DNA of 11,463 nucleotides from contig CALMDN010000440.1 of NCBI GenBank assembly GCA_937864935.1, positions 1-11,463 of the forward strand, read 5' to 3'. Below, in pieces: positions 1 to 11,463 of this stretch (the first letter of the stretch is position 1; each line of letters begins with the position of its first letter). Source of the stretch: an uncultured Bacteroidales bacterium. GTDB lineage: Bacteria; Bacteroidota; Bacteroidia; Bacteroidales; Lentimicrobiaceae. The notes beneath the pieces were generated by a model. It was not told the DNA's origin. It worked only from the letters and a program-made list of their open reading frames with translations, and did not search any database. Made by a program: the position numbers and the translations under genes.

Positions 1-919
1 TTTTATTCTGAGCTACGAAAGCCGCAAAGCAGAAACTGCTCAGGAAAAAGTCGTAGTCAACCCAAACGGTACCGGCATTGCCCCAGGTACTTCCCCATGA
101 ATTGATGACCTTAAATGCACTTCTTGAGTCATCATAACCTGCCAGAACCATGGCGTGATAGGCATGTTGCATCCCTGGATTGAGGTAGGTGTCGTAGTCG
201 ATCACTGCATCGCTGTTCCAGCGCATGAAGCGGTCGCCCAGTTTTGCTCCGAGTGCGATGGGCCGGCCTTCGGCCAGGTAGGCCTTGAAGTTTTCAACCG
301 TCATGGAAGCCGGATTGCTCTGATCGGCAATCTTACGGAAATTGGTCAGTTTGTTGTTGCCTGCATCCGCAGTCCAGTCTGATGGGGGTGTCTGGCTGCA
401 GTCGCCGAGGCTGGTGTAAGGGACAGTTGCAAGTGAAGCTCCGCCACGGGTGATCAGCATATTCATGGCCGACTCAAACTGAGTGCCATTGCAATCGCTG
501 CCCTTCTCGGCAGAGGGGATGGCCCAGAAAACATCTTTCGGACTGGTTTGGTTTGATGCCTGTGCTAGTTGACTGGCGGTCCACTGGTTGTCGATGCCGT
601 TGAGTGCAGTCTTCAGGTTATACCCTACTGCCCAGGCCACGCAGGTGCCATACTCGCCCTGGTCACCGATGGGTGGAAACTTGCTGCTCAGGTCAACACT
701 GGAAGGCAGACTCCCGGTATTGTCGTTGATGTCGAGGTCCTGCGGGATCTCATCAAGCTCTTCATCTTCCGCATTCCAGCTGGCCATGGCCTCAACCAGG
801 ATTTCACTGAGAATCTGGGTGATTTCTTCCTTGGTACAGCTGTTGAAGGTGAACATTGACAAGCCCATCACAGGAATCAGGAACATGGGCACACTCAGTT
901 TTTTAAAAAGATTTTTCAT
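1..919 (-). CDS. Papain-family (C1) cysteine peptidase, predicted lipoprotein, 3' end outside window
   Basis: The reading frame starts at an ATG (919-917) and stays open for 306 codons to the window edge, so the C-terminus is missing. The N-terminus is a lipoprotein signal peptide: basic MKNLFKK, a hydrophobic stretch, then FNSC with lipidated Cys28. The peptidase domain starts near residue 71. Its C1 active-site residues are all visible: Gln87 and Cys93 in GDQGEYGTCVAWA, His255 in YHAMVLAGYDD, and Asn273 in VINSWGSTWG. It should hydrolyse peptide bonds in the periplasm or at the outer-membrane surface. Only about 40 residues, acidic and low in complexity, separate Cys28 from the catalytic domain, so no full I29-type inhibitory prodomain is seen. 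It begins 37 nt after the pentapeptide-like gene and is probably cotranscribed with it. The family call is secure; the substrate is unknown. Confidence 0.9.
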   Translation of the reverse strand, partial: MKNLFKKLSVPMFLIPVMGLSMFTFNSCTKEEITQILSEILVEAMASWNAEDEELDEIPQDLDINDNTGSLPSSVDLSSKFPPIGDQGEYGTCVAWAVGYNLKTALNGIDNQWTASQLAQASNQTSPKDVFWAIPSAEKGSDCNGTQFESAMNMLITRGGASLATVPYTSLGDCSQTPPSDWTADAGNNKLTNFRKIADQSNPASMTVENFKAYLAEGRPIALGAKLGDRFMRWNSDAVIDYDTYLNPGMQHAYHAMVLAGYDDSRSAFKVINSWGSTWGNAGTVWVDYDFFLSSFCFAAFVAQNK

Positions 920-956: not shown

Positions 957-1910
957 TCAGTCTTTACGGAATTCTTTGAAAACAGCAATTTTCGAGCCAT
1001 CGGTGATGAGCCTGCCCGGAGAATTTACAACAAATTCATCCTGAATTGGTTCACCATTGAAGAATGTACTGCCACTGAGGTCGAAATTCCCATTGACAAC
1101 AGACTTTGTGAGGTTCACTGCCCCGTGAAAGCTGCTGTTGCTGAGCCAGGCTGCCGACAGTAACTGCACGCTGATCAGGTCGAGCCGCCCGTAAACCACC
1201 ACATTGCCCATCCTGAAATCGCTTCCGAAGTTGGCATAGGTAAAGAGGGCATCACTCCCGAAGCGGGTAAGCGAGAAATCACTCTTACCATCGCAGTCCA
1301 TGTCGCTGAACCTTGCCGTACCTGTAAAAACAGTGCCCTGAAAAGTGATCTTCCCAGTTACCCTGGCTTTAAAGAAATCGGATTCTCCGGATATTAACGA
1401 TTCCTGCATCGAGAAATGTTTTTCGCTGACAAAAGCGGTGAAATAGTTGTGCCGTCCCCTGAAAGTTACGTTGTTGAAGATCGCTTTTTCCCTGAATATT
1501 GCCCCGGTAAAGTTCACAGATCCCTCAATGGTGGTATTGCTGAAATCCGCTTCACCCCTGAAGTCACAGGCTTCAAAGGATACATTTCCGCCGAAATGGC
1601 TGGTCGTTGTAATCTTCCCATCGTTAGATACAGTGCTGACCTTTCCCATAAAAATGCAATTCAGAAAGGTTACGGGGCCATTGATCCGGGCTGTTTTCTG
1701 TGATGTACTGAATACCTCTGTATTGCCTGACCGGGTGAAATCAAGGTCACCGGTAATGATTTTATCCTGAATAAGTACAGGTTTCCCTTTGTGAATCAGG
1801 CGGATAACAGATGCTGCACTGATCCCGTTGTTCAGCTGTTTCTCCGGATTGGCACGGCAGCCGGTAAGCAAAACATGGATCAGCAGGAACAGGAGGAGGT
1901 TTCGTTTCAT
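957..1910 (-). CDS. Pentapeptide-repeat-like lipoprotein
   Basis: A 317-residue protein with a lipoprotein signal peptide (MKRNLLLFLL..LLTGC, lipidated Cys18). From about residue 50 to 285 it consists of degenerate strand-like repeats with Phe or other aromatics at regular spacing, for example GDLDFTRS, ADFSNTTIEG, SVNFTGAIF, KAIFNNVTF, ARFSDMDCDG and FDLSGSTFF. This fits the pentapeptide-repeat class, which folds as a right-handed quadrilateral beta-helix. The repeats diverge from the textbook A(N/D)LxX pattern, so the match is to the loose extracytoplasmic type. Known relatives act as structural or binding scaffolds; no catalytic motif is visible. The ATG at 1910 fits the signal peptide. 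The C1 peptidase gene follows after 37 nt, suggesting an operon. The upstream gene ends at a strong terminator, so a promoter should lie in 1911-2049, but I could not identify one. The function is unknown. Confidence 0.75.
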   Translation of the reverse strand: MKRNLLLFLLIHVLLTGCRANPEKQLNNGISAASVIRLIHKGKPVLIQDKIITGDLDFTRSGNTEVFSTSQKTARINGPVTFLNCIFMGKVSTVSNDGKITTTSHFGGNVSFEACDFRGEADFSNTTIEGSVNFTGAIFREKAIFNNVTFRGRHNYFTAFVSEKHFSMQESLISGESDFFKARVTGKITFQGTVFTGTARFSDMDCDGKSDFSLTRFGSDALFTYANFGSDFRMGNVVVYGRLDLISVQLLSAAWLSNSSFHGAVNLTKSVVNGNFDLSGSTFFNGEPIQDEFVVNSPGRLITDGSKIAVFKEFRKD

Positions 1911-2049: not shown

Positions 2050-2086
2050 AAATAACAAAAAGAGGCTGCTTTGTAAGGCAGCCTCT
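2050..2086 (-). terminator. Rho-independent terminator after the uncharacterised lipoprotein gene
   Basis: On the minus strand a perfect 9-bp stem AGAGGCTGC / GCAGCCTCT (2078-2086 pairs with 2061-2069) encloses an 8-nt loop and is followed immediately by a T-rich tract (TTTTTGTTATT). It lies 21 nt beyond the stop codon at 2108. It separates the signalling locus and its downstream lipoprotein from the pentapeptide-like/peptidase gene pair. Confidence 0.88.
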
Positions 2087-2107: not shown

Positions 2108-3049
2108 TCAGGGAAGGGGAAGGAAACTGGTGCCTGTATAGGTGCCATTCTGCCAGTCAACGCGGTAGTGCGTCGGGCAATCACCATTGGTTACAGGCTG
2201 GTTGTTGCTGTCGTACCCGAAAGTAATGGTGGCACTTTTCTCAACGCCCGGAATCTGGTGAACCTTGATGCCGCTAACCGGATTTCCGTCGCAGACCTCT
2301 TTGTGTACCACCGATTGATTGATCTGGGTGTAAAACTCTTCTCCGGCACGGTTGGTTCCCCACACAACCAGATTGCTGTAATCGCCCGATGTTCCGAATC
2401 CGTCAACGGTAAGCACAATCTCTCCGGGTGTACCGGTATAGGTGCGCTGGCGGGCAACGTTCCACGAACGGGTGGTGCCGTTGTCAAAAAGAATATCCAT
2501 ATGACCGCTAACCCGGTGAACTACAGTTGTGATTCCGAAATTTCCGAGCATGTAAACGAAACCACCGGTAACATTGGTGAAGGTCTTGTCGCTGTTGATC
2601 ACAATGGTTTTTCCCGTAAGTACGCGGGTAACAGAGAAGTTGATGTATTTCACATTAACACTGGCTCCGGGCATTCCCCAATGGGTGCCGACCTGCTTTC
2701 TGATCTGTACCTGGCCGGTTCTGAACTTGCGGCCATTGCATGACAATCCGTTGTAGGTGATGTAAATGGTAATGGTATCATTGACAACGGAAGTAGAGTC
2801 AACAGTGGCATTGCAGGGCAGGTTGCTGGTTGATTTGTAGCTGCTTCCATTGTAACTCAGCACGCTTTCAACATCCTGCAGTGCATCATTGGAAATTTCT
2901 TCAACAGTGATTTCATCTTTCGACAGTTCAGTCATAGAAGTTGAATCATTTTTACCTTCTTCAAGGTTGTCTTTCTTACAGGAAGTGAGTGCCAGACCTG
3001 ACAAAGCAAGAACAAATGCTGCGGTGCGGATTGATTTGAGTGTTTTCAT
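2108..3049 (-). CDS. Uncharacterised secreted lipoprotein with its own ECF-type promoter motif
   Basis: The start is placed at the ATG 3049-3047, giving 313 residues that open with a proper lipoprotein signal: MKTLKSIRTA, a hydrophobic segment, then ALTSC with lipidated Cys24. An in-frame ATG at 3118 would add 23 polar residues before the signal peptide and lies only 3 nt past the promoter motif at 3122-3151, so it is rejected. After an acidic linker (residues 25-65) the body looks like an all-beta extracellular domain, rich in Thr, Ser, Asn and Gly. Conserved-looking points are GLSCNGRKFRTGQVQI, a central GGFVYMLGN, EVCDGNPVSGI and the C-terminal NGDCPTHYRVDW. It resembles a group of unannotated Bacteroidota lipoproteins with similarly placed cysteines, but I cannot name a family. 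It lies 162 nt below the DUF4249 gene and ends before a strong terminator. It could be a surface ligand-binding or accessory protein of the TonB locus; this is inference from context and promoter only. Confidence 0.8.
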   Translation of the reverse strand: MKTLKSIRTAAFVLALSGLALTSCKKDNLEEGKNDSTSMTELSKDEITVEEISNDALQDVESVLSYNGSSYKSTSNLPCNATVDSTSVVNDTITIYITYNGLSCNGRKFRTGQVQIRKQVGTHWGMPGASVNVKYINFSVTRVLTGKTIVINSDKTFTNVTGGFVYMLGNFGITTVVHRVSGHMDILFDNGTTRSWNVARQRTYTGTPGEIVLTVDGFGTSGDYSNLVVWGTNRAGEEFYTQINQSVVHKEVCDGNPVSGIKVHQIPGVEKSATITFGYDSNNQPVTNGDCPTHYRVDWQNGTYTGTSFLPLP

Positions 3050-3121: not shown

Positions 3122-3151
3122 TATTACACCTCAACACGCGTTTACCCCTAT
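3122..3151 (-). promoter_or_regulatory. Putative ECF-sigma promoter of the uncharacterised lipoprotein gene
   Basis: The minus strand reads ATAGGGGTAAAC, 10 nt, GTGTAATA. The same two blocks with the same spacing occur at 7832-7861 before the anti-sigma gene. The first block fits a -35 element and the second a -10 element. The predicted leader is about 65 nt, A-rich and without a Shine-Dalgarno sequence, as is usual in Bacteroidota. The motif lies in the non-coding gap between the DUF4249 gene and this gene. Assigning it to the sigma factor at 7878-8441 is inference. Confidence 0.65.
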
Positions 3152-3211
3152 GCGAAAACTGATTTTTTTACTTATTTTTTTAAACACTTGAATTACACGT
3201 TATTAAAATAG

Positions 3212-4069
3212 TTAATTGTTGCCTTTTGACAGCGGAAGTATGGTTCTGGCGATGTCGGTTTTTGTGGTCACTGCGCAGGCGCTGAAATACCCCCGTGCAT
3301 TGTTGCTCAGGTTGGTAGGCAGATTGGCAGAGGCAACATTGAAAAGCCCGCCCTGCCAGTTGGTTTCTGAGAGCAATGCCCTCAGAAAAGCAGCATGGCT
3401 TTCGGTGATTGAGTATCGTTTTTCCGTTATGTGGGTACCCGGGGGAAACAATACCATTTCAGAGGACGGTGCAAAAACCTGATTGACATCCAGAGTGGGC
3501 AGGGTATAATACAACAGCCTTGCATGGGTCTCTTCGTATGGCAGGTGCTTATACCCATCTACCATCGACCAGTCGAGCAAAACTTCATACATCGCAAGCC
3601 GGTTGGCATTGTAGGTGTTGGCAACCCACACCAACCTGAATAAACCGGTTGAACCATGTTTTACATACCTCAGAAAAACAAATTCTCTGCCAACCGGCAT
3701 GGTAGCTTTGGCGGTGATGACATTGTTATTGTGATTGATCAGCAGGGTGTACGTCCTCAGCTGCTTTCCTGCAAAGCGTATTTTTGACCGGTATGTTCCC
3801 GGTTGCTCCGGATCTTCCGTGAATTCGTAAAGCTCATCAGGCGAACTGACCAGTACCCCTGCTCCGCTTACCACCTCAGGAGTGATTCCAGGGATGGTAC
3901 TCACTTTTGTCAGATACACCGTCTGATATTCAGTTTCGCTGGTAATCATGCCCTCTACGACAATGCTGCTGTCTGACAACCCGTTTCCGGCCCAGTCGTT
4001 CTGTTCTTCACAGCCCGACAAAACAGATACGGTCAGAAGCAGGTACAGCAGTATTCTTCGTTTCATCAT
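3212..4069 (-). CDS. DUF4249-family lipoprotein, partner of the TonB-dependent receptor
   Basis: A 285-residue protein with a lipoprotein signal peptide (MMKRRILLYL..VLSGC, lipidated Cys20). Acidic residues directly follow the cysteine (CEEQNDW), similar to the acidic export signals described for surface-exposed Bacteroidota lipoproteins. The body matches the DUF4249 pattern: an early IVVEGMIT strand, a YLTKVS segment, a SGAGVLVSS segment with YEF.EDPEQPGTY, then a YTLLINHNNNVITAKA strand. The C-terminal part has NLPTNLSNNARGYFSACAV, also typical. DUF4249 proteins are habitually encoded next to STN/CarboxypepD-like TonB receptors and are presumed to work with them at the outer membrane; no substrate is established. 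The gene starts 16 nt after the receptor stop codon and is almost certainly cotranscribed. Two adjacent ATG codons (4069, 4066) are possible starts. No terminator is seen after it, so readthrough into the next lipoprotein gene is possible. Confidence 0.85.
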   Translation of the reverse strand: MMKRRILLYLLLTVSVLSGCEEQNDWAGNGLSDSSIVVEGMITSETEYQTVYLTKVSTIPGITPEVVSGAGVLVSSPDELYEFTEDPEQPGTYRSKIRFAGKQLRTYTLLINHNNNVITAKATMPVGREFVFLRYVKHGSTGLFRLVWVANTYNANRLAMYEVLLDWSMVDGYKHLPYEETHARLLYYTLPTLDVNQVFAPSSEMVLFPPGTHITEKRYSITESHAAFLRALLSETNWQGGLFNVASANLPTNLSNNARGYFSACAVTTKTDIARTILPLSKGNN

Positions 4070-4085
4070 AGAGAATCAGGTTTTG

Positions 4086-6749
4086 TCAGAATCTGAATGT
4101 ATAATTTAATGCAGGAATCAGTCCGGCAACCGAAATGCTGGTTGGGATAACTTCGTAGGATCCGTCAAGATCTGACGGTACGACAAACTCCCCCTTGTCG
4201 TTCATGATTTTGTTGAAGGCAAAGGCAAATGGATTTTTATGTGCATAAAGGTTGTAGAACGACAGTACAATGTTGTGTTTGTATCGGTTTTCAGGTTTAT
4301 TCAGCCTGAAACTGATTGAGACATCCATGCGGTGATAGTCTGGCAGACGGCTGTTGTTTCTGGCACCATACACCGGCACAGTGTAGCCGTTGAAACTCAT
4401 AAAGCCGGTCGGGGAAGTGTATGCTGATCCGCTCATATAAAACCATGAAGCTGAAATATCGACAAAGCTGGCAGCCTTCCAGGTGAGGTTGGTAAACAGG
4501 CTGTGCGGCCGGTCGTAGATAGCCGGAAACTCCAGGCCATTGTTGAGGTCTTCCATGGTTTTCAATATCCTGGTATAAGCATAGCCAAGCCATCCGGCGA
4601 GTTTACCGCTTGATTTCTTCAACAGCAGTTCAACTCCGTATGAACGGGCAGTCCCGAAGCGGAGTTCGCCCTCAATAAAAGGGTTGTAGAGCATGTTGGC
4701 ATGATCCTTATAATCGATCTGGTTGTGGAATTTTTTATAAAAAGTCTCAACACTCAGCTGTACCGGATTCCCGTTGAATCGGGTCAGGAAACAGGCGGTG
4801 AACTGATCGGCAGTCTGCGGCCGGATGTTCGGTCCTGAAGGCGCCCATACTTCAAGGGAAGTAAACGGGCTTGTTGAATTCGACAACATCTGCAGGTATT
4901 GGGCAGTGCGGGTATATCCGGCAGTCAGGGTCGATTCTCTGCCAATTCTCCAGGACAGGCTCAGGCGTGGTTCAGGACGGTAGTAAGGGGTAAAATAGCT
5001 TCCCTTGCTTACAGTTACTGTGTCAATTACCTGGTATGCAGCATCATAGAAATACACGGTCGCCGGACCAGTGTTTCTCCATGAACTCAGTCTGAGTCCG
5101 TACCTTAGCAGCAAGCGGTCACCGATCATCTGATCATTGCTAAGGTAAACTGATAAGCCCATTGAATTGTATTCAGGAATCACCGGTGCACTCTTCTGTG
5201 TGTCTTCGTCTGAGAAATGCACATTCCCGGGATTGGAGTGGTTTCCGCTGATCTCAGCCCCGGCCCTGATGGTATTGGCAGGGTTCATGTAGAATGTGAA
5301 ATCGGTTTTGAGGGTTCTGTTCCGAACCGAAGAAAGCCAGTAATCATCCTGTTCGCGTGAAATGTAAAGGTAATAGTTGTACTGACTGAAGACCGCGGTG
5401 GTATTGGAAAACAAGCGGTTGCTGAAGAGGTGGTTCCACCTGATGGTGCCTGTGGTGTTGTTCCAGCTGATGCCAAAAGTGTTTACAGAAGATCCCGTAA
5501 TCCGGCTGAATTCATCCCTGCCGGTGAACCCGGTAAGAAACAGACGGTTTTTGTCGTTGATCCTGATGTTAAACTTGGCGTTGAGGTCGTAAAAATCGAT
5601 GGTGATGGATTTGTTGAAGATCTCCTCACTGTTGAGCCAGTTGAGGTTTGATTTTCTTGCCGACAGAATAAAGGAGCTTTTCTCCTTCTGTATCGGGCCT
5701 TCAACTGTAAGATCGGAGGTGTAGATGCCCAGGTTGCCCGAGAATCCGGGCCGGTTGATGTTTCCGTCCCTCGCCCTGATGTCGATTACTGATGACAGCC
5801 TGCCGCCGTAAGATGCCGGAAAATCACCCTTGAACGCCCTCACATCCTTGATGGCATCGGGTGCCAGGGCAGAGAAGAACCCGAAAAGATGGGCCGGATT
5901 AAAAATAGGGGCTTCATCGATGAGCATGAGGTTCTGATCGTTGTTACCTCCACGCACATAATAGAAGGAAGAGCCGTCGCCGAAGGTATTGATGCCCGGG
6001 ACTGCCTGTAATGACCGGATAACATCAATATTGCCGGCAAAACCGGCCATCCTCTTCAGGGCAGCAGCCGTTAACCTCACTTCACCTGCATTTCCGGCTG
6101 TGATCTCCTTTTCGTCCTGTCCTCCCTTTATCTCCACAGCCTTCATGTCGATGCCGGTTTCATTGAGTTTTATGTTCAGGCTTCTGTTGCTGTTCAGGTT
6201 CAGTGCAAGGCTTGTGGCTGCATAACCCAGCAATGAGAAGGTAATATCGTAGTGGCCTTCGGCCAGCGTAATTGAGAAGAACCCATAGGCGTTGGTGGTG
6301 GTGCCGGTATAACTGCTTTTGTCGTATACATTGGCCCCGATCAGTGCTTCGCCGGTCTTTTCATCCCTCAGAAAACCGCTCAGGGTGTATTTCTGAACCG
6401 CTGCCGTTGCGTTCTCTTCTTTCATTGCCTTTGATGGCTTCAGAATTACCTGCTGCTCACGCTGTATCCTGGCAATGTTAAGTGGTTTCAGGATTTCGTC
6501 CAGAATGGTTTCAATGTTCTTCTCACTTGCTCTGTAAACGATTTTCCTGTCAAGCGGCAGGCTGGCGGCATTGTACGAAAACAGAATTCCTGACTGCCGG
6601 CTGAGCTCCCTGAGAACCTCCTCCAAGGGGACATTGTTGAATTCAACCGAAATTTTCTGGTTTAAATGCTGGGCATGGAGCATACCGACGGAAGCCAGGA
6701 GAAGGGCCGTCACAAAAATCGTTCTGAAGAGTAGCTTCAAAGGGCTCAA
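4086..6749 (-). CDS. TonB-dependent outer-membrane receptor with STN signalling domain
   Basis: About 887 residues. Domains in order: signal peptide (1-27, ending MLHAQ); STN/secretin-like signalling domain (about 34-92, VEFNNVPLEEVLRELSRQSG); carboxypeptidase-regulatory-like beta-sandwich (about 121-200, YTLSGFLRDEKTGEALIGAN); plug (about 218-330, with YYVRGGNNDQNLMLIDEAP and FPASYGGRLSSVIDIRA); and a C-terminal beta-barrel ending in aromatic YTFRF. It imports an unknown ligand across the outer membrane using TonB energy, and the STN domain should signal to the FecR-like protein encoded just upstream (40-nt gap). No in-frame ATG precedes the signal peptide: an in-frame stop lies at 6764-6762, and the candidate starts are TTG at 6749, TTG at 6740 or CTG at 6761. 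TTG-6740 gives the neatest signal peptide (KLLFRTIFVT after the start). The 16-nt spacing to the DUF4249 gene indicates an operon. I cannot see the substrate. Confidence 0.93.
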   Translation of the reverse strand: MSPLKLLFRTIFVTALLLASVGMLHAQHLNQKISVEFNNVPLEEVLRELSRQSGILFSYNAASLPLDRKIVYRASEKNIETILDEILKPLNIARIQREQQVILKPSKAMKEENATAAVQKYTLSGFLRDEKTGEALIGANVYDKSSYTGTTTNAYGFFSITLAEGHYDITFSLLGYAATSLALNLNSNRSLNIKLNETGIDMKAVEIKGGQDEKEITAGNAGEVRLTAAALKRMAGFAGNIDVIRSLQAVPGINTFGDGSSFYYVRGGNNDQNLMLIDEAPIFNPAHLFGFFSALAPDAIKDVRAFKGDFPASYGGRLSSVIDIRARDGNINRPGFSGNLGIYTSDLTVEGPIQKEKSSFILSARKSNLNWLNSEEIFNKSITIDFYDLNAKFNIRINDKNRLFLTGFTGRDEFSRITGSSVNTFGISWNNTTGTIRWNHLFSNRLFSNTTAVFSQYNYYLYISREQDDYWLSSVRNRTLKTDFTFYMNPANTIRAGAEISGNHSNPGNVHFSDEDTQKSAPVIPEYNSMGLSVYLSNDQMIGDRLLLRYGLRLSSWRNTGPATVYFYDAAYQVIDTVTVSKGSYFTPYYRPEPRLSLSWRIGRESTLTAGYTRTAQYLQMLSNSTSPFTSLEVWAPSGPNIRPQTADQFTACFLTRFNGNPVQLSVETFYKKFHNQIDYKDHANMLYNPFIEGELRFGTARSYGVELLLKKSSGKLAGWLGYAYTRILKTMEDLNNGLEFPAIYDRPHSLFTNLTWKAASFVDISASWFYMSGSAYTSPTGFMSFNGYTVPVYGARNNSRLPDYHRMDVSISFRLNKPENRYKHNIVLSFYNLYAHKNPFAFAFNKIMNDKGEFVVPSDLDGSYEVIPTSISVAGLIPALNYTFRF

Positions 6750-6789
6750 ACTGCTGTTCAGTTATAATTTGATTCTTAAATGCCTGCAA

Positions 6790-7815
6790 TCAGTTGCCAT
6801 TGCAACCAGAACCGCTGATTTGGATTACCCCGTCTTTTGTTGTTACGGTCAGATCCAGGGTTGCGGCAATGACGCTGAGCACCGACTCAATTGTCTGACC
6901 CTCAAACGTAGCTGTGAGGGTGCAGTTTTCAGGGTTCTTCTGCTGTATGCTTATTTTCCTGCTGTATACTTTTTCGAGTGTCGTGCAGACTGATTCCAGA
7001 CTGGTATTGTTAAATTCAAGTCTTCCGGTTACCCAGGCGTTGTAGTTGGGGTCGTCGTTGGGTGAAGTGACAATGGCTCCCGTTGCAGAATCCAGGGTGC
7101 CTTTCTCCCCGGGACTAAGTGTTCTGCTGTTTTGCTCATCATCCCTGAAATAAAGCGCAACACTGCCGGAAGTAAGAACGACACTCACCTTGTTGTTGCC
7201 GTTGTTGGTATTGACATTGAATTGGGTTCCCAGCACCCTGATGCGGGCATCTCCGCCCGAAACGATGAAGGGTTGGGATGCATTGTGGATAACCGAAAAA
7301 TATGCTTCACCGGTCAGCGTAACTTCCCGGGTGCCGGAACTGAAGGATTCAGGATATTCAATGGATGACCCCTGAAGCAGGGTAACCCTGCTGCCGTCAG
7401 GAAGTGTTGTTTCGAGTTTGCCTTGCTCAGCTGTGATTGTTTTAACCCCTGAACTTCCCAACAGGTACACTGCTCCGATGACCATTACCAGCAGCGCAAT
7501 GGCTGCTGCTGAAACCCAGGCTGACCGTAAGCTGATCAGCCGGCCTGAACGTGGTGCTGCTGATGGCTTGTTTTCCGGAGATTCTGCAGCTTTCAGTTTT
7601 TGTTCTGCTGCCTTCCATTCCTGGTCTATGTCAAGGGTAGTCCCGATTACCTCCTTACCGGTAAGCAGCCAGGTCTGATAGAACGATTCAAACACTGCAA
7701 GGTTTGCTTCATCTTTCGTGATCCAACCCGAAAGTTCCGCGATCTCATCCGGAGTGGCTTCCCCGGCTAAGTAGGTGGTAATCAAATCCTCGTAGTATGT
7801 TGCTGAAGCTTTCAT
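6790..7815 (-). CDS. FecR-family anti-sigma factor (sigma regulator), inner membrane
   Basis: A 341-residue protein. Residues 1-95 form a cytoplasmic sigma-binding region (YYEDLITTYLAGEATPDEIAEL, then W31 and F42-W49). One transmembrane helix follows (about 100-120, WVSAAAIALLVMVIGAVYLL). The periplasmic part is a FecR domain (about 125-222: TAEQGKLETTLPDGSRVTL, REVTLTGEAYFSV, FIVSGGDARIRVLGTQFNV) and a C-terminal DUF4974 domain (about 265-335: GRLEFNNTSLESVCTTLEK). It should hold or activate the adjacent sigma factor and receive a signal from the STN domain of the receptor. It lies 62 nt after the sigma gene, and the gap contains the putative ECF promoter. An AGGA sequence sits 7 nt before the ATG. 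The receptor gene follows after 40 nt. The family is clear; whether it inhibits or is also needed for sigma activity cannot be read from sequence. Confidence 0.93.
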   Translation of the reverse strand: MKASATYYEDLITTYLAGEATPDEIAELSGWITKDEANLAVFESFYQTWLLTGKEVIGTTLDIDQEWKAAEQKLKAAESPENKPSAAPRSGRLISLRSAWVSAAAIALLVMVIGAVYLLGSSGVKTITAEQGKLETTLPDGSRVTLLQGSSIEYPESFSSGTREVTLTGEAYFSVIHNASQPFIVSGGDARIRVLGTQFNVNTNNGNNKVSVVLTSGSVALYFRDDEQNSRTLSPGEKGTLDSATGAIVTSPNDDPNYNAWVTGRLEFNNTSLESVCTTLEKVYSRKISIQQKNPENCTLTATFEGQTIESVLSVIAATLDLTVTTKDGVIQISGSGCNGN

Positions 7816-7831
7816 GATGGTTTCCTGGTAA

Positions 7832-7861
7832 TATTACACATGAAATGTGGTTTACCCCTAT
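7832..7861 (-). promoter_or_regulatory. Putative ECF-sigma autoregulatory promoter of the anti-sigma/receptor operon
   Basis: The minus strand reads ATAGGGGTAAAC, 10 nt, GTGTAATA, with blocks and spacing identical to the site at 3122-3151 (20 of 20 block positions; only 3 of 10 spacer positions agree). It lies wholly in the 62-nt gap between the sigma and anti-sigma genes, the usual place for an autoregulated ECF promoter. The -10-like block ends 16 nt before the anti-sigma ATG, so the leader would be very short and the AGGA ribosome-binding sequence (7823-7826) would be near the transcript's 5' end. An operator is an alternative reading. Confidence 0.65.
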
Positions 7862-8594: not shown

Positions 8595-9155
8595 ATGATT
8601 TTTTCTGAACTGATTCTTACGCGCCAGAGTGTACGCAGGTACTCCCCGACAGCTGTAGAAGATTCGCTGATTCTTCAGTGTCTGGAAGCTGCCCGCATGG
8701 CTCCTTCGGCAAGTAACTCCCAGCCATGGCATTTTATTGTTGTCAATCAGGAGCCCCTGAGAACCGAAGTGGCGAAAGCCACCTTCAGCGACATACAGCT
8801 TATCAACAAATTTACCCTCACCGCCCCTGTAATGGTGGTGATGGTGATGGAGAAGGCCAGACTGATAACCCGTCTGGCAATGCTTGTCAAAAAAAAGGAA
8901 TGGCCCCTGATCGACATCGGGATTGCCGCTGAGCACTTCTGCCTTCAGGCTGCTGAACTCGGGCTGGGCACCTGTATGATCGGCTGGTTCGATGAGAAGA
9001 AGCTGCAGAAACTGCTGAACATCCCATCCGGAAAGTCAATCGGACTTGTCATCAGCGCGGGATATCCTGAGGAAGGGTATAAACTCCGCACCAAGGTGAG
9101 GAAAGGGCCCGATGAGATTATCTCCTGGAATGCCTATCCGGTAGGAAAACAATAG
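8595..9155 (+). CDS. Nitroreductase-family FMN-dependent oxidoreductase
   Basis: A 186-residue protein with the short nitroreductase-family layout. The N-terminal FMN-phosphate-binding motif is TRQSVRRYS (9-17). SASNSQPWHFIVV (38-50) is the typical second flavin-contacting segment, DIGIAAEHFCLQAAELGLGT (107-126) is the central helix, and MIGWFDEKKLQKLL (128-141) follows. IGLVISAGYPEEGYKLR.K.RK (149-170) is the usual C-terminal strand and basic segment. Family members use NAD(P)H to reduce nitroaromatics, quinones or other electron acceptors, so the physiological substrate cannot be inferred. It is the only plus-strand gene, divergent from the sigma gene and convergent with gcvP, so it is probably a single-gene transcript unrelated to the TonB locus. 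The ATG is preceded by an AT-rich leader without a clear Shine-Dalgarno sequence. Confidence 0.92.
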   Translation: MIFSELILTRQSVRRYSPTAVEDSLILQCLEAARMAPSASNSQPWHFIVVNQEPLRTEVAKATFSDIQLINKFTLTAPVMVVMVMEKARLITRLAMLVKKKEWPLIDIGIAAEHFCLQAAELGLGTCMIGWFDEKKLQKLLNIPSGKSIGLVISAGYPEEGYKLRTKVRKGPDEIISWNAYPVGKQ

Positions 9156-9234: not shown

Positions 9235-11463
9235 CTATGATTTCTCTGCATAATCAGCCACCGGAGCGCAGGTGCAGATCAGGTTACGGTCACCGTAGGC
9301 ATCATCAATGCGGGTAACCGAAGGCCAGTATTTGTCACTCTTGTCGCAGGGCAGCGGGAAGGCTGCTTTTTCGCGGGAGTAGGGTAGGCTCCACTCCTCC
9401 GCTGTCACCATACAAAGGGTATGGGGGGCTTTCCTGATGACGTTCATGGTCTTATCGGCCTTGCCTTCTGCGATTTCATCAATCTCTTTGCGGATGGCGA
9501 TCATGGCATCCACGAAGCGGTCAAGTTCTTCGAGCGGCTCACTTTCAGTTGGTTCAACCATCAGCGTTCCATGAACCGGGAAAGCAACGGTTGGTGCATG
9601 GAATCCATAGTCCATCAAACGTTTGGCCAGGTCAATTACCTGCAGGTCAGCGGTTTTGGTGAATTCGTTGCAGTCGAGGATCATTTCATGGGCAACCCTG
9701 CCGTTTTTGCCGGTATATAGTATTTTGTAACTTCCTTCAAGTTTGGTTTTCAGATAATTGGCATTCAGAATGGCCAGCCGGGTGGCTTCTGTCAAACCGT
9801 CGCCACCGAGCAGCTTGATGTATCCATACGAGATGGTGAGTACCGAGGCGCTGCCGTAAGGGGCGGATGAAACAGCCGTAATGGACTGATCGCCTCCGAT
9901 ATTTACCAGCTTGTGTCCCGGAAGGAAGGGAACCAGATGCCTGGCTACACCGATGGGACCCACACCCGGACCTCCGCCACCATGAGGAATGGCAAATGTT
10001 TTGTGCAGGTTCAGGTGACAGACATCTGCACCGATAAAGCCGGGACTGGTGAGCCCGACCTGGGCGTTCATGTTGGCACCATCCATATATACCTGACCGC
10101 CATTGCTGTGGATGATTTCAATCAGCTCCAGAATGCCCTCTTCAAATACCCCATGGGTGGAAGGATAGGTAACCATACAGGCTGCAAGCACATCTTTGTG
10201 TTTCTCAGCTTTTTCTCTAAGGTCGGCAAGGTCGATGTTGCCGTTTTCATCGGTTTTTACGACCACAACCGACATGCCTGCCATGGCAGCGCTGGCAGGG
10301 TTGGTGCCATGAGCCGATGCCGGAATGAGGCATACGGTACGGCCTGAATCTCCACGGCTGAGGTGGTAAGCCCTGATGACCAGCAATCCGGCATACTCAC
10401 CGGAAGCCCCTGAATTGGGCTGGAAAGACATGGCCGCGAAGCCGGTAATCTCACAAAGCGATTTTTCCAGATCACGGATCAGCAGGCTGTAGCCCTCTAC
10501 CTGATCCAGGGGAACAAAGGGGTGCAGGCTGGTAAACTCAGGCCAGCTGAGGGCGAAAAGTTCGGCAGCAGCATTCAGTTTCATGGTGCATGATCCCAGC
10601 GGAATCATCGAACGGTTGAGCGACAGGTCTTTGCCTTCAAGCTTTTTGAGAAAGCGCATCATGCCGGTTTCAGAATGATAGCTGTTGAAAACCTTGTCCT
10701 GCAGGAAGGCAGACGTCCGTTTGAAACTCTCCGGGATGGTTTTGATTCTGCAGCACTCTTCCGGAATACAGACATAATCGGCGAACTGTTTTTTCGCGGC
10801 GGAGGCAAAGATATTGACCAGGGTGTTTAGATCCTGCAGGTTGGTGGTCTCATCAATGCTGATGCCGATCACCCGTTTGCTGATGTACCTGAAGTTGACT
10901 TCATTTTCGGTGGCCAGTTTCCTGAAATCGGCCATGCGGACGGTTTCCGGTATCTGTATACGGACAGTGTCAAAATAGGTGGTGTTGAGCTGCTGATAAC
11001 CATATTTAAGGACTTCAGTAGCCAGCACACCAGCGAGGATGTTGATGCGGCGGGCTATCTGTCTTATTCCTTCAGGCCCATGATAAACGCCATACATTCC
11101 GCTCATGATGGCCAGCAGGGCCTGGGCGGTACATATGTTTGAGGTTGCCCGTTCACGCTTGATGTGCTGTTCACGGGTCTGCAGGGCCATGCGAAGTGCG
11201 CGCTTGCCCAGGGCGTCTACCGATACACCGATGATGCGGCCGGGGATGTTCCGTTTGTACTCTTCACGGGTGGCAAAGTATCCGGCATGCGGGCCACCGT
11301 ATCCCATCGGGATGCCAAACCGCTGGTTGGTTCCAACCACCACATCGGCTCCCCACTCACCCGGAGGAGTGATCAGCGCCAGACTCATCAGGTCGGCAGC
11401 TACTGCAACCATCACACCTTTTTCTTGCGCCACGTTTACGAAACTGCTGTAATCGTGAATCTC
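9235..11463 (-). CDS. gcvP: Glycine dehydrogenase (decarboxylating), P protein of the glycine cleavage system, 5' end outside window
   Basis: The frame is open from the right edge (EIHDYSSFVNVAQEKG) to a TAG at 9237-9235, giving 742 residues of a protein that is normally about 950. The P protein decarboxylates glycine with PLP and transfers the aminomethyl group to lipoyl-GcvH. Visible landmarks are GADVVVGTNQRFGIPMGYGG and PHAGYFATREEYKRNIPGR in the N-terminal half. In the C-terminal half they are MIPLGSCTMKLNAA, PNSGASGEYAGL, SAHGTNPASAAMAGM and the PLP-lysine site LHKTFAIPHGGGGPGVGPIG (Lys codon at 10002-10000). Both halves are in one reading frame, so this is the single-chain GcvP form rather than the split GcvPA/GcvPB form. 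No frameshift is seen. A GTG at 11433 is only an internal valine, not the start. This is housekeeping one-carbon metabolism with no evident link to the TonB locus. Confidence 0.97.
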   Translation of the reverse strand, partial: EIHDYSSFVNVAQEKGVMVAVAADLMSLALITPPGEWGADVVVGTNQRFGIPMGYGGPHAGYFATREEYKRNIPGRIIGVSVDALGKRALRMALQTREQHIKRERATSNICTAQALLAIMSGMYGVYHGPEGIRQIARRINILAGVLATEVLKYGYQQLNTTYFDTVRIQIPETVRMADFRKLATENEVNFRYISKRVIGISIDETTNLQDLNTLVNIFASAAKKQFADYVCIPEECCRIKTIPESFKRTSAFLQDKVFNSYHSETGMMRFLKKLEGKDLSLNRSMIPLGSCTMKLNAAAELFALSWPEFTSLHPFVPLDQVEGYSLLIRDLEKSLCEITGFAAMSFQPNSGASGEYAGLLVIRAYHLSRGDSGRTVCLIPASAHGTNPASAAMAGMSVVVVKTDENGNIDLADLREKAEKHKDVLAACMVTYPSTHGVFEEGILELIEIIHSNGGQVYMDGANMNAQVGLTSPGFIGADVCHLNLHKTFAIPHGGGGPGVGPIGVARHLVPFLPGHKLVNIGGDQSITAVSSAPYGSASVLTISYGYIKLLGGDGLTEATRLAILNANYLKTKLEGSYKILYTGKNGRVAHEMILDCNEFTKTADLQVIDLAKRLMDYGFHAPTVAFPVHGTLMVEPTESEPLEELDRFVDAMIAIRKEIDEIAEGKADKTMNVIRKAPHTLCMVTAEEWSLPYSREKAAFPLPCDKSDKYWPSVTRIDDAYGDRNLICTCAPVADYAEKS

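Follow-up and report, generated by a model that had tools for sequence, protein, structure and literature searches.

A conserved two-block motif ahead of a fecR-headed receptor operon and a lipoprotein gene is very probably the promoter of the neighbouring FecI-type sigma factor in a Bacteroidales genome

The DNA analyzed here (11,463 nucleotides, hereafter the window) carries on its minus strand, in this order, genes for a sigma factor, a FecR-type protein, a TonB-dependent receptor, a DUF4249 protein, a lipoprotein (LP), a pentapeptide-repeat protein and a papain-family peptidase (Table 1). The calls for the FecR, LP and sigma genes agreed with those of an earlier reading made from the sequence alone (the sequence-only reading). 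According to Pfam and NCBIfam, the sigma factor has regions 2 and 4 only and is an ECF sigma factor of the FecI type, and it is adjoined by a FecR-domain anti-sigma gene, as in loci of the FecI/FecR/FecA kind. An STN-like domain at the N-terminus of the receptor gave an E-value of 2.3e-6 and 27.7 bits, slightly under the Pfam cut-off of 28.4, and the DUF4249 protein is likely to be the partner of this receptor. A polysaccharide utilisation locus of the SusCD type has a SusC protein above cut-off together with a SusD partner; the window is not such a locus, as its receptor reached 50.8 bits against the SusC family (cut-off 368.25) and no SusD domain was found by Pfam among the nine window proteins scanned.

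The LP sequence matched no Pfam family, and the search for homologues returned 504 at E <= 0.001, 120 of them listed. In the AlphaFold2 model (mean pLDDT 87.7, pTM 0.79) the protein is predicted to form an N-terminal helix and a large antiparallel beta sheet, a fold with no clear match among the solved folds compared. The LP start codon is likely the one at 3049, because the longer frame from 3118 would start almost on the -10 block of the motif described below, and translation from 3049 opens with a lipoprotein-type signal. A stem with a T-rich tail follows the gene at 2086-2061, so the transcript that begins ahead of LP would probably contain LP alone; this candidate terminator likely separates LP from the pentapeptide-repeat and C1 peptidase genes in the window, and sites of this kind are not above shuffles in the region (7 found, 7.7 expected). 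Between the window and the related locus L034, LP is the best conserved of five proteins compared, with 97% identity (sigma factor, 90%; receptor, 88%; DUF4249 protein, 83%; FecR, 73%).

Table 1. Features of the window, and related motif sites elsewhere in its genome
Feature	Position	Strand	Basis or remark
Putative promoter P1: -35 block ATAGGGGTAAAC, -10 block GTGTAATA	7832..7861	(-)	exact match, 16 nt ahead of FecR start codon
Putative promoter P2: same blocks as P1	3122..3151	(-)	exact match, 72 nt ahead of LP start codon 3049
ECF (FecI-type) sigma factor, 187 aa, TIGR02985	7878..8441	(-)	Pfam Sigma70_r2 and r4_2; NCBIfam TIGR02985, 171.7 bits (cut-off 126.4)
FecR-type anti-sigma/sensor, first gene of the putative P1 transcript	6790..7815	(-)	Pfam FecR and FecR_C above cut-off
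TonB-dependent receptor with STN-like, CarboxypepD_reg and Plug domains	4086..6749	(-)	Pfam; start codon uncertain
DUF4249 protein	3212..4069	(-)	Pfam PF14054, 45.4 bits (cut-off 28.5); syntenic in relatives
Putative target lipoprotein LP, 313 aa, without Pfam family	2108..3049	(-)	gene call; homologues; AlphaFold2 model
Intrinsic terminator candidate after LP	2061..2086	(-)	9-pair stem, then T-rich tail; fold -17 kcal/mol, z -4.0
Pentapeptide-repeat protein	957..1910	(-)	3' of LP; syntenic in L034, L035, L036, L270
Papain-family (C1) peptidase	2..919	(-)	3' of LP; syntenic in L034, L035, L036, L270
Nitroreductase	8595..9155		divergent, upstream of sigma
Glycine dehydrogenase, cut by window end	9235..11463		upstream of sigma
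Second-class motif site (L144), own genome	C124:1034-1060	(-)	ahead of a secreted-type protein
Second-class motif site (L150), own genome	C513:219-245	(+)	ahead of a secreted-type protein
Second-class motif site (L154), own genome	C534:2477-2503	(+)	ahead of a secreted-type protein

The sequence-only reading had drawn attention to two identical two-block sites on the minus strand, and its description proved exact. Both sites have the form ATAGGGGTAAAC-N10-GTGTAATA; the minus strand reads ATAGGGGTAAACCACATTTCATGTGTAATA at 7861-7832 (P1) and ATAGGGGTAAACGCGTGTTGAGGTGTAATA at 3151-3122 (P2), with 20 of 20 block bases but only 3 of 10 spacer bases in common. P1 and P2 were the sole matches to the full two-block pattern in the window when up to three mismatches were allowed, and none of 200 dinucleotide shuffles of the window contained a match. 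The genome-wide search with mismatches that had been proposed as a check, carried out on the draft genome of the window (3,003,338 bases in 589 contigs, 72.5% complete), returned P1, P2 and a single match with three mismatches, and no third copy within two mismatches; the reversed pattern, used as a control, had no match in the whole draft genome. The bare core GGGT-N14-GTGT is not rare, being found twice in the window against 0.32 expected and twice in 7 of 200 shuffles, and the significance of the sites rests on the full blocks and on their position.

We examined the junctions between the genes in a set of 93 sigma loci, the window included, and kept the 47 (the window among them) in which the sigma factor was at least 44% identical and a receptor was found. 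The order of the sigma, FecR, receptor, DUF4249 and LP genes was the same in relatives. A scored site was present at the sigma/FecR junction in 40 of 47 loci and at the DUF4249/LP junction in 16 of 16, compared with 0 of 47 at the FecR/receptor junction and 0 of 42 at the receptor/DUF4249 junction; the score was built on a consensus seen beforehand and is partly circular, so these other junctions are the real control. Only 0.1 to 1.4% of single-base shuffles of the junctions attained the site score. Counting the bare core gave 44 of 47 loci at the sigma/FecR junction, the comparison of orthologous intergenic regions that the sequence-only reading had called for, and 16 of 16 at the DUF4249/LP junction, the window being included in both counts. 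The three loci without the exact core ahead of FecR were L051 (GGGA), L078 (TTGT) and L166, and in L080, excluded from the counts with a sigma identity of 42%, the core was seen by eye at both junctions. Many of the loci, such as L158, L159 and L160, are closely related to one another and do not represent independent cases. The consensus around the core was AT[AC][AG]GGGTAAA-N11-GTGTATTATT; GGGT and GTGT are invariant in it because the search pattern required both. The last C that the sequence-only reading assigned to the first block is not conserved.

The presence of just two copies in the draft genome could also mean that the sites are identical through a recent duplication or by chance and have no function. 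We consider this vanishingly improbable in view of the differing spacers, the absence of the pattern from all 200 shuffles and the conservation of the sites down to loci with 44% sigma identity. The spacers of P1 and P2 within one locus had a mean identity of 0.29 (15 pairs), which is near chance, so the two sites are not recent copies of each other, as the sequence-only reading had argued in favour of functional sites. In sixteen full modules, which together span 214,635 bases, every strict site on both strands (24 in all) lay either at P1 (13) or at P2 (11).

We searched 41 genomes (19 of the window's genus and 22 of other genera) for the strict pattern GGGTAA-N12-GTGTAWTA. A sigma orthologue (identity >= 55%) was found in 12 of the 19 genus genomes and in none of the other 7. 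The 12 genomes yielded 18 strict hits; 16 are P1 or P2 sites, spread over 10 genomes, so the scatter inside genes named beforehand as evidence against a promoter was not seen. The two hits outside the module are in G007 and G008, whose modules carry variant sites, and one of the two lies inside a galactokinase-like gene. There was no strict hit in the 7 genus genomes without the orthologue, and no hit to the reversed pattern in any of the 19. The 22 genomes of other genera gave 7 strict hits (one of them an LP site) against 3 reversed, and the strict form is therefore informative only near the window's lineage.

The lipoprotein was present in 17 of 60 genomes searched, the window's own included. 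The motif was found ahead of LP in every one of the 15 genomes that have a sigma orthologue (identity >= 49%) and in neither of the two that lack one; loci L273 and L274 were read by eye. Of the two genomes without an orthologue, G018 is 96% complete, and G003 is 78% complete, so that its assembly may have missed a sigma gene. In G018 (L270, contig C70) the sigma-FecR-receptor-DUF4249 block is absent from a neighbourhood that is otherwise as in the window: LP lies directly between the nitroreductase and pentapeptide-repeat genes, and the C1 peptidase gene is also retained. The 3.9-kb LP region of this genome contains no match to GGGT-N14-[GT]TGT. Four genomes (G024, G031, G044 and G050) have a sigma relative of 48-55% and lack LP, which is therefore not an obligate member of the module. 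In G029, a genome from the same taxonomic order as the window that also carries the module, a strict GTGTATTA site (L131; C658:6467-6492, minus strand) lies 40 nt ahead of a gene for a 294-aa secreted-type protein, a possible third target in that genome.

Other DNA-binding regulators can likewise recognise two blocks at a fixed distance, and an activator or repressor sharing the regulon could use the motif as its operator. This is very unlikely, given that the two blocks form no inverted or direct repeat, that the sites lie at promoter distance, in a single orientation and beside an ECF sigma gene, that the motif co-occurs with the sigma gene and is absent without it, and that a paralogous sigma factor has a variant of the motif at its own FecR gap. 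This paralogue is one of two further sigma factors of the same kind found in the window's genome at E <= 1e-20, on contigs C335 and C346. The sigma factor on C335 (G000:C335) is 38% identical to that of the window, and the gap before its FecR gene holds GGGGTAAACACCTGTTTGATTGTCTAT (L205:1573), with the same GGGGTAAA block and a -10 end TTGTCTAT instead of GTGTAATA. The existence of both paralogues, and the GGGGTAAA block shared with the C335 site, would fit P1 and P2 being read by a different ECF sigma factor of the genome. We regard that as highly improbable, since the C335 site differs in its -10 end and since four genomes of the same genus (G002, G014, G016 and G018) have such paralogues but neither the orthologue nor a strict site.

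We conclude that P1 and P2 are very probably the -35/-10 promoters of the sigma factor encoded beside them, with P1 predicted to drive fecR, the receptor and DUF4249 genes and P2 to drive LP, the sigma gene being transcribed from elsewhere. The two-transcript regulon proposed in the sequence-only reading is supported by the conservation at the junctions and the co-occurrence with the sigma gene. Its premise that the sigma factor autoregulates through this motif did not hold: no match to GGGT-N14-[GT]TGT was found within 300 nt upstream of the sigma gene in any of 46 loci, and P1, lying 3' of the sigma gene, is unable to drive it. The sigma gene of this subfamily thus appears not to be autoregulated, and it is the anti-sigma gene that carries the motif and would be under the control of the sigma factor. 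The motif, its position, its conservation and its co-occurrence with the sigma gene are observed; sigma binding, the flow of the signal and a ligand are what we infer. By analogy with surface signalling in FecIR and HasIS, a ligand at the receptor would signal through the N-terminal STN-like domain to FecR, which would then free the sigma factor to fire P1 and P2 together, yielding more receptor, DUF4249 protein and lipoprotein. Firing of P1 would also yield more FecR and shut off the response, a negative feedback without sigma autoregulation. The expected behaviour would be a burst triggered by the receptor and limited by newly made FecR.

The C335 site is the TTGTCTAT variant of a second class of motif. 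In G001 and G004, sigma genes related to the C335 one are followed by GGGGTAAA-N11-TTGTCTTA 27 nt ahead of FecR. Of 19 genomes, 6 contained this pattern, with 13 hits in total, compared with none for the reversed pattern. Three of the 13 sites (L276, L280 and L284) have no convincing downstream gene. A T9SS sorting tail scored above cut-off in two of the three secreted-type proteins that follow such sites in the window's own genome (Table 1), and the L150 protein runs off the contig end, so that its missing tail is not informative. This second class is likely the regulon of the C335 paralogue, and the pairing of a shared -35 block with a different -10 sequence (TTGTC) suggests a -10 code that could insulate the two regulons.

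We extended the comparison to 198 loci of the wider family, in which [AG]GGGT[AT]-N13-NTGT was present just downstream of the sigma gene in 100 and, unlike in the window's subfamily, upstream in 16; the reversed pattern was found at 0 and 1, respectively. A nearby site accompanied 103 of 183 distinct sigma genes. The bases flanking TGT vary, the main forms being GTGTA, GTGTT, GTGTG and TTGTC, and 97 of the 183 distinct sigma factors (those with a GTGT or TTGT site) were kept for covariation. Sigma residues associated with the -10 bases cluster in loop L3 and regions 2.3/2.4 (window-sigma positions 52-58 and 65-88; rank-test p 3e-5 and 6e-7, uncorrected for kinship), and columns 18, 36, 44, 45 and 161, some of them outside the DNA-reading parts, rank high as well. 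Arginine at position 76 accompanies G in 55 of 57 cases and T in 8 of 40. The combination R-D-K at 76/77/80 occurs with GTGTA in 24 of 25 cases, GTGTG in 8 of 10, GTGTT in 8 of 17 and TTGTC in 0 of 33, where K followed by H or Y accounts for 21 of 33. Changes in the -10 bases and residues occurred independently on only 1 to 4 supported branches and are thus not significant after kinship, and a residue code for the -10 bases is suggestive only. Loop L3 of ECF sigma factors has been described as reading one flipped-out -10 base (PMC8103513). We lean towards a wider pattern in which many FecI-like (TIGR02985-type) sigma factors across Bacteroidota would have a target promoter in the gap before fecR, with a common GGGT -35 element and a subfamily-specific -10 element (GTGT[A/G/T] or TTGTC) that depends on a small number of L3 and region 2.4 residues (R-D-K at 76/77/80 or mostly K-H/Y-x), the regulons being mutually insulated.

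Approaches to identifying ECF target promoters rely largely on sigma factors that are autoregulated (PMC8103513), and B. thetaiotaomicron alone is reported to have 50 ECF sigma factors (PMC12596196). A conserved site between the sigma and anti-sigma genes offers a direct handle on ECF regulons that are not autoregulated. If the wider pattern is true, the sigma/fecR gap would reveal the code of each sigma factor, and the non-autoregulated regulons of a genome could be read from its sequence. The natural absence of the block in G018 and the paired paralogues within one genome provide material for experiments on the sigma residues that select the -10 element, and the motif pair connects a DUF4249 receptor operon with a lipoprotein family that has so far gone unstudied.

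The hallmark ECF promoter has AAC at -35 and CGT at -10 (PMC8103513), whereas the conserved core here is GGGT and GTGT; the first block in the window does end with AAC, of which the C is not a conserved base. A TonB receptor adjoining a DUF4249 gene is also known from BT2172/BT2173, which are reported to work together, and the relevant passages of that account mention neither a sigma/FecR pair nor an LP gene (PMC11003636). The ECF sigma/anti-sigma pairs of Bacteroides polysaccharide loci such as PUL24 likewise combine a sigma factor, an anti-sigma factor that represses the receptor operon and a TonB receptor (PMC11501099), but no SusD domain was found in the window locus and its receptor falls below the SusC cut-off. 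FecI-like sigma factors have been described as an exception to ECF autoregulation (PMC8103513), which agrees with the result for the sigma gene of the window's subfamily. In the haem signalling system of Serratia, HasI is needed for transcription of the anti-sigma gene hasS, yet HasI is not autoregulated, and a TonB receptor is the sensor (PMC9249621). The locus in the window would resemble that system in each of these respects, and differs in that its anti-sigma gene heads the receptor operon directly behind the sigma gene, that its predicted target set includes DUF4249 and an uncharacterised lipoprotein, and that its host belongs to the Bacteroidota. The ferric citrate system of E. coli (FecIR-FecA) shares the FecI-type sigma factor, FecR, the TonB receptor and the lack of sigma autoregulation; there, fecIR is one unit controlled by sigma70 and Fur and the FecI promoter lies ahead of fecA (PMC9249621), whereas the presumed sigma promoter of the window sits between the sigma gene and fecR.
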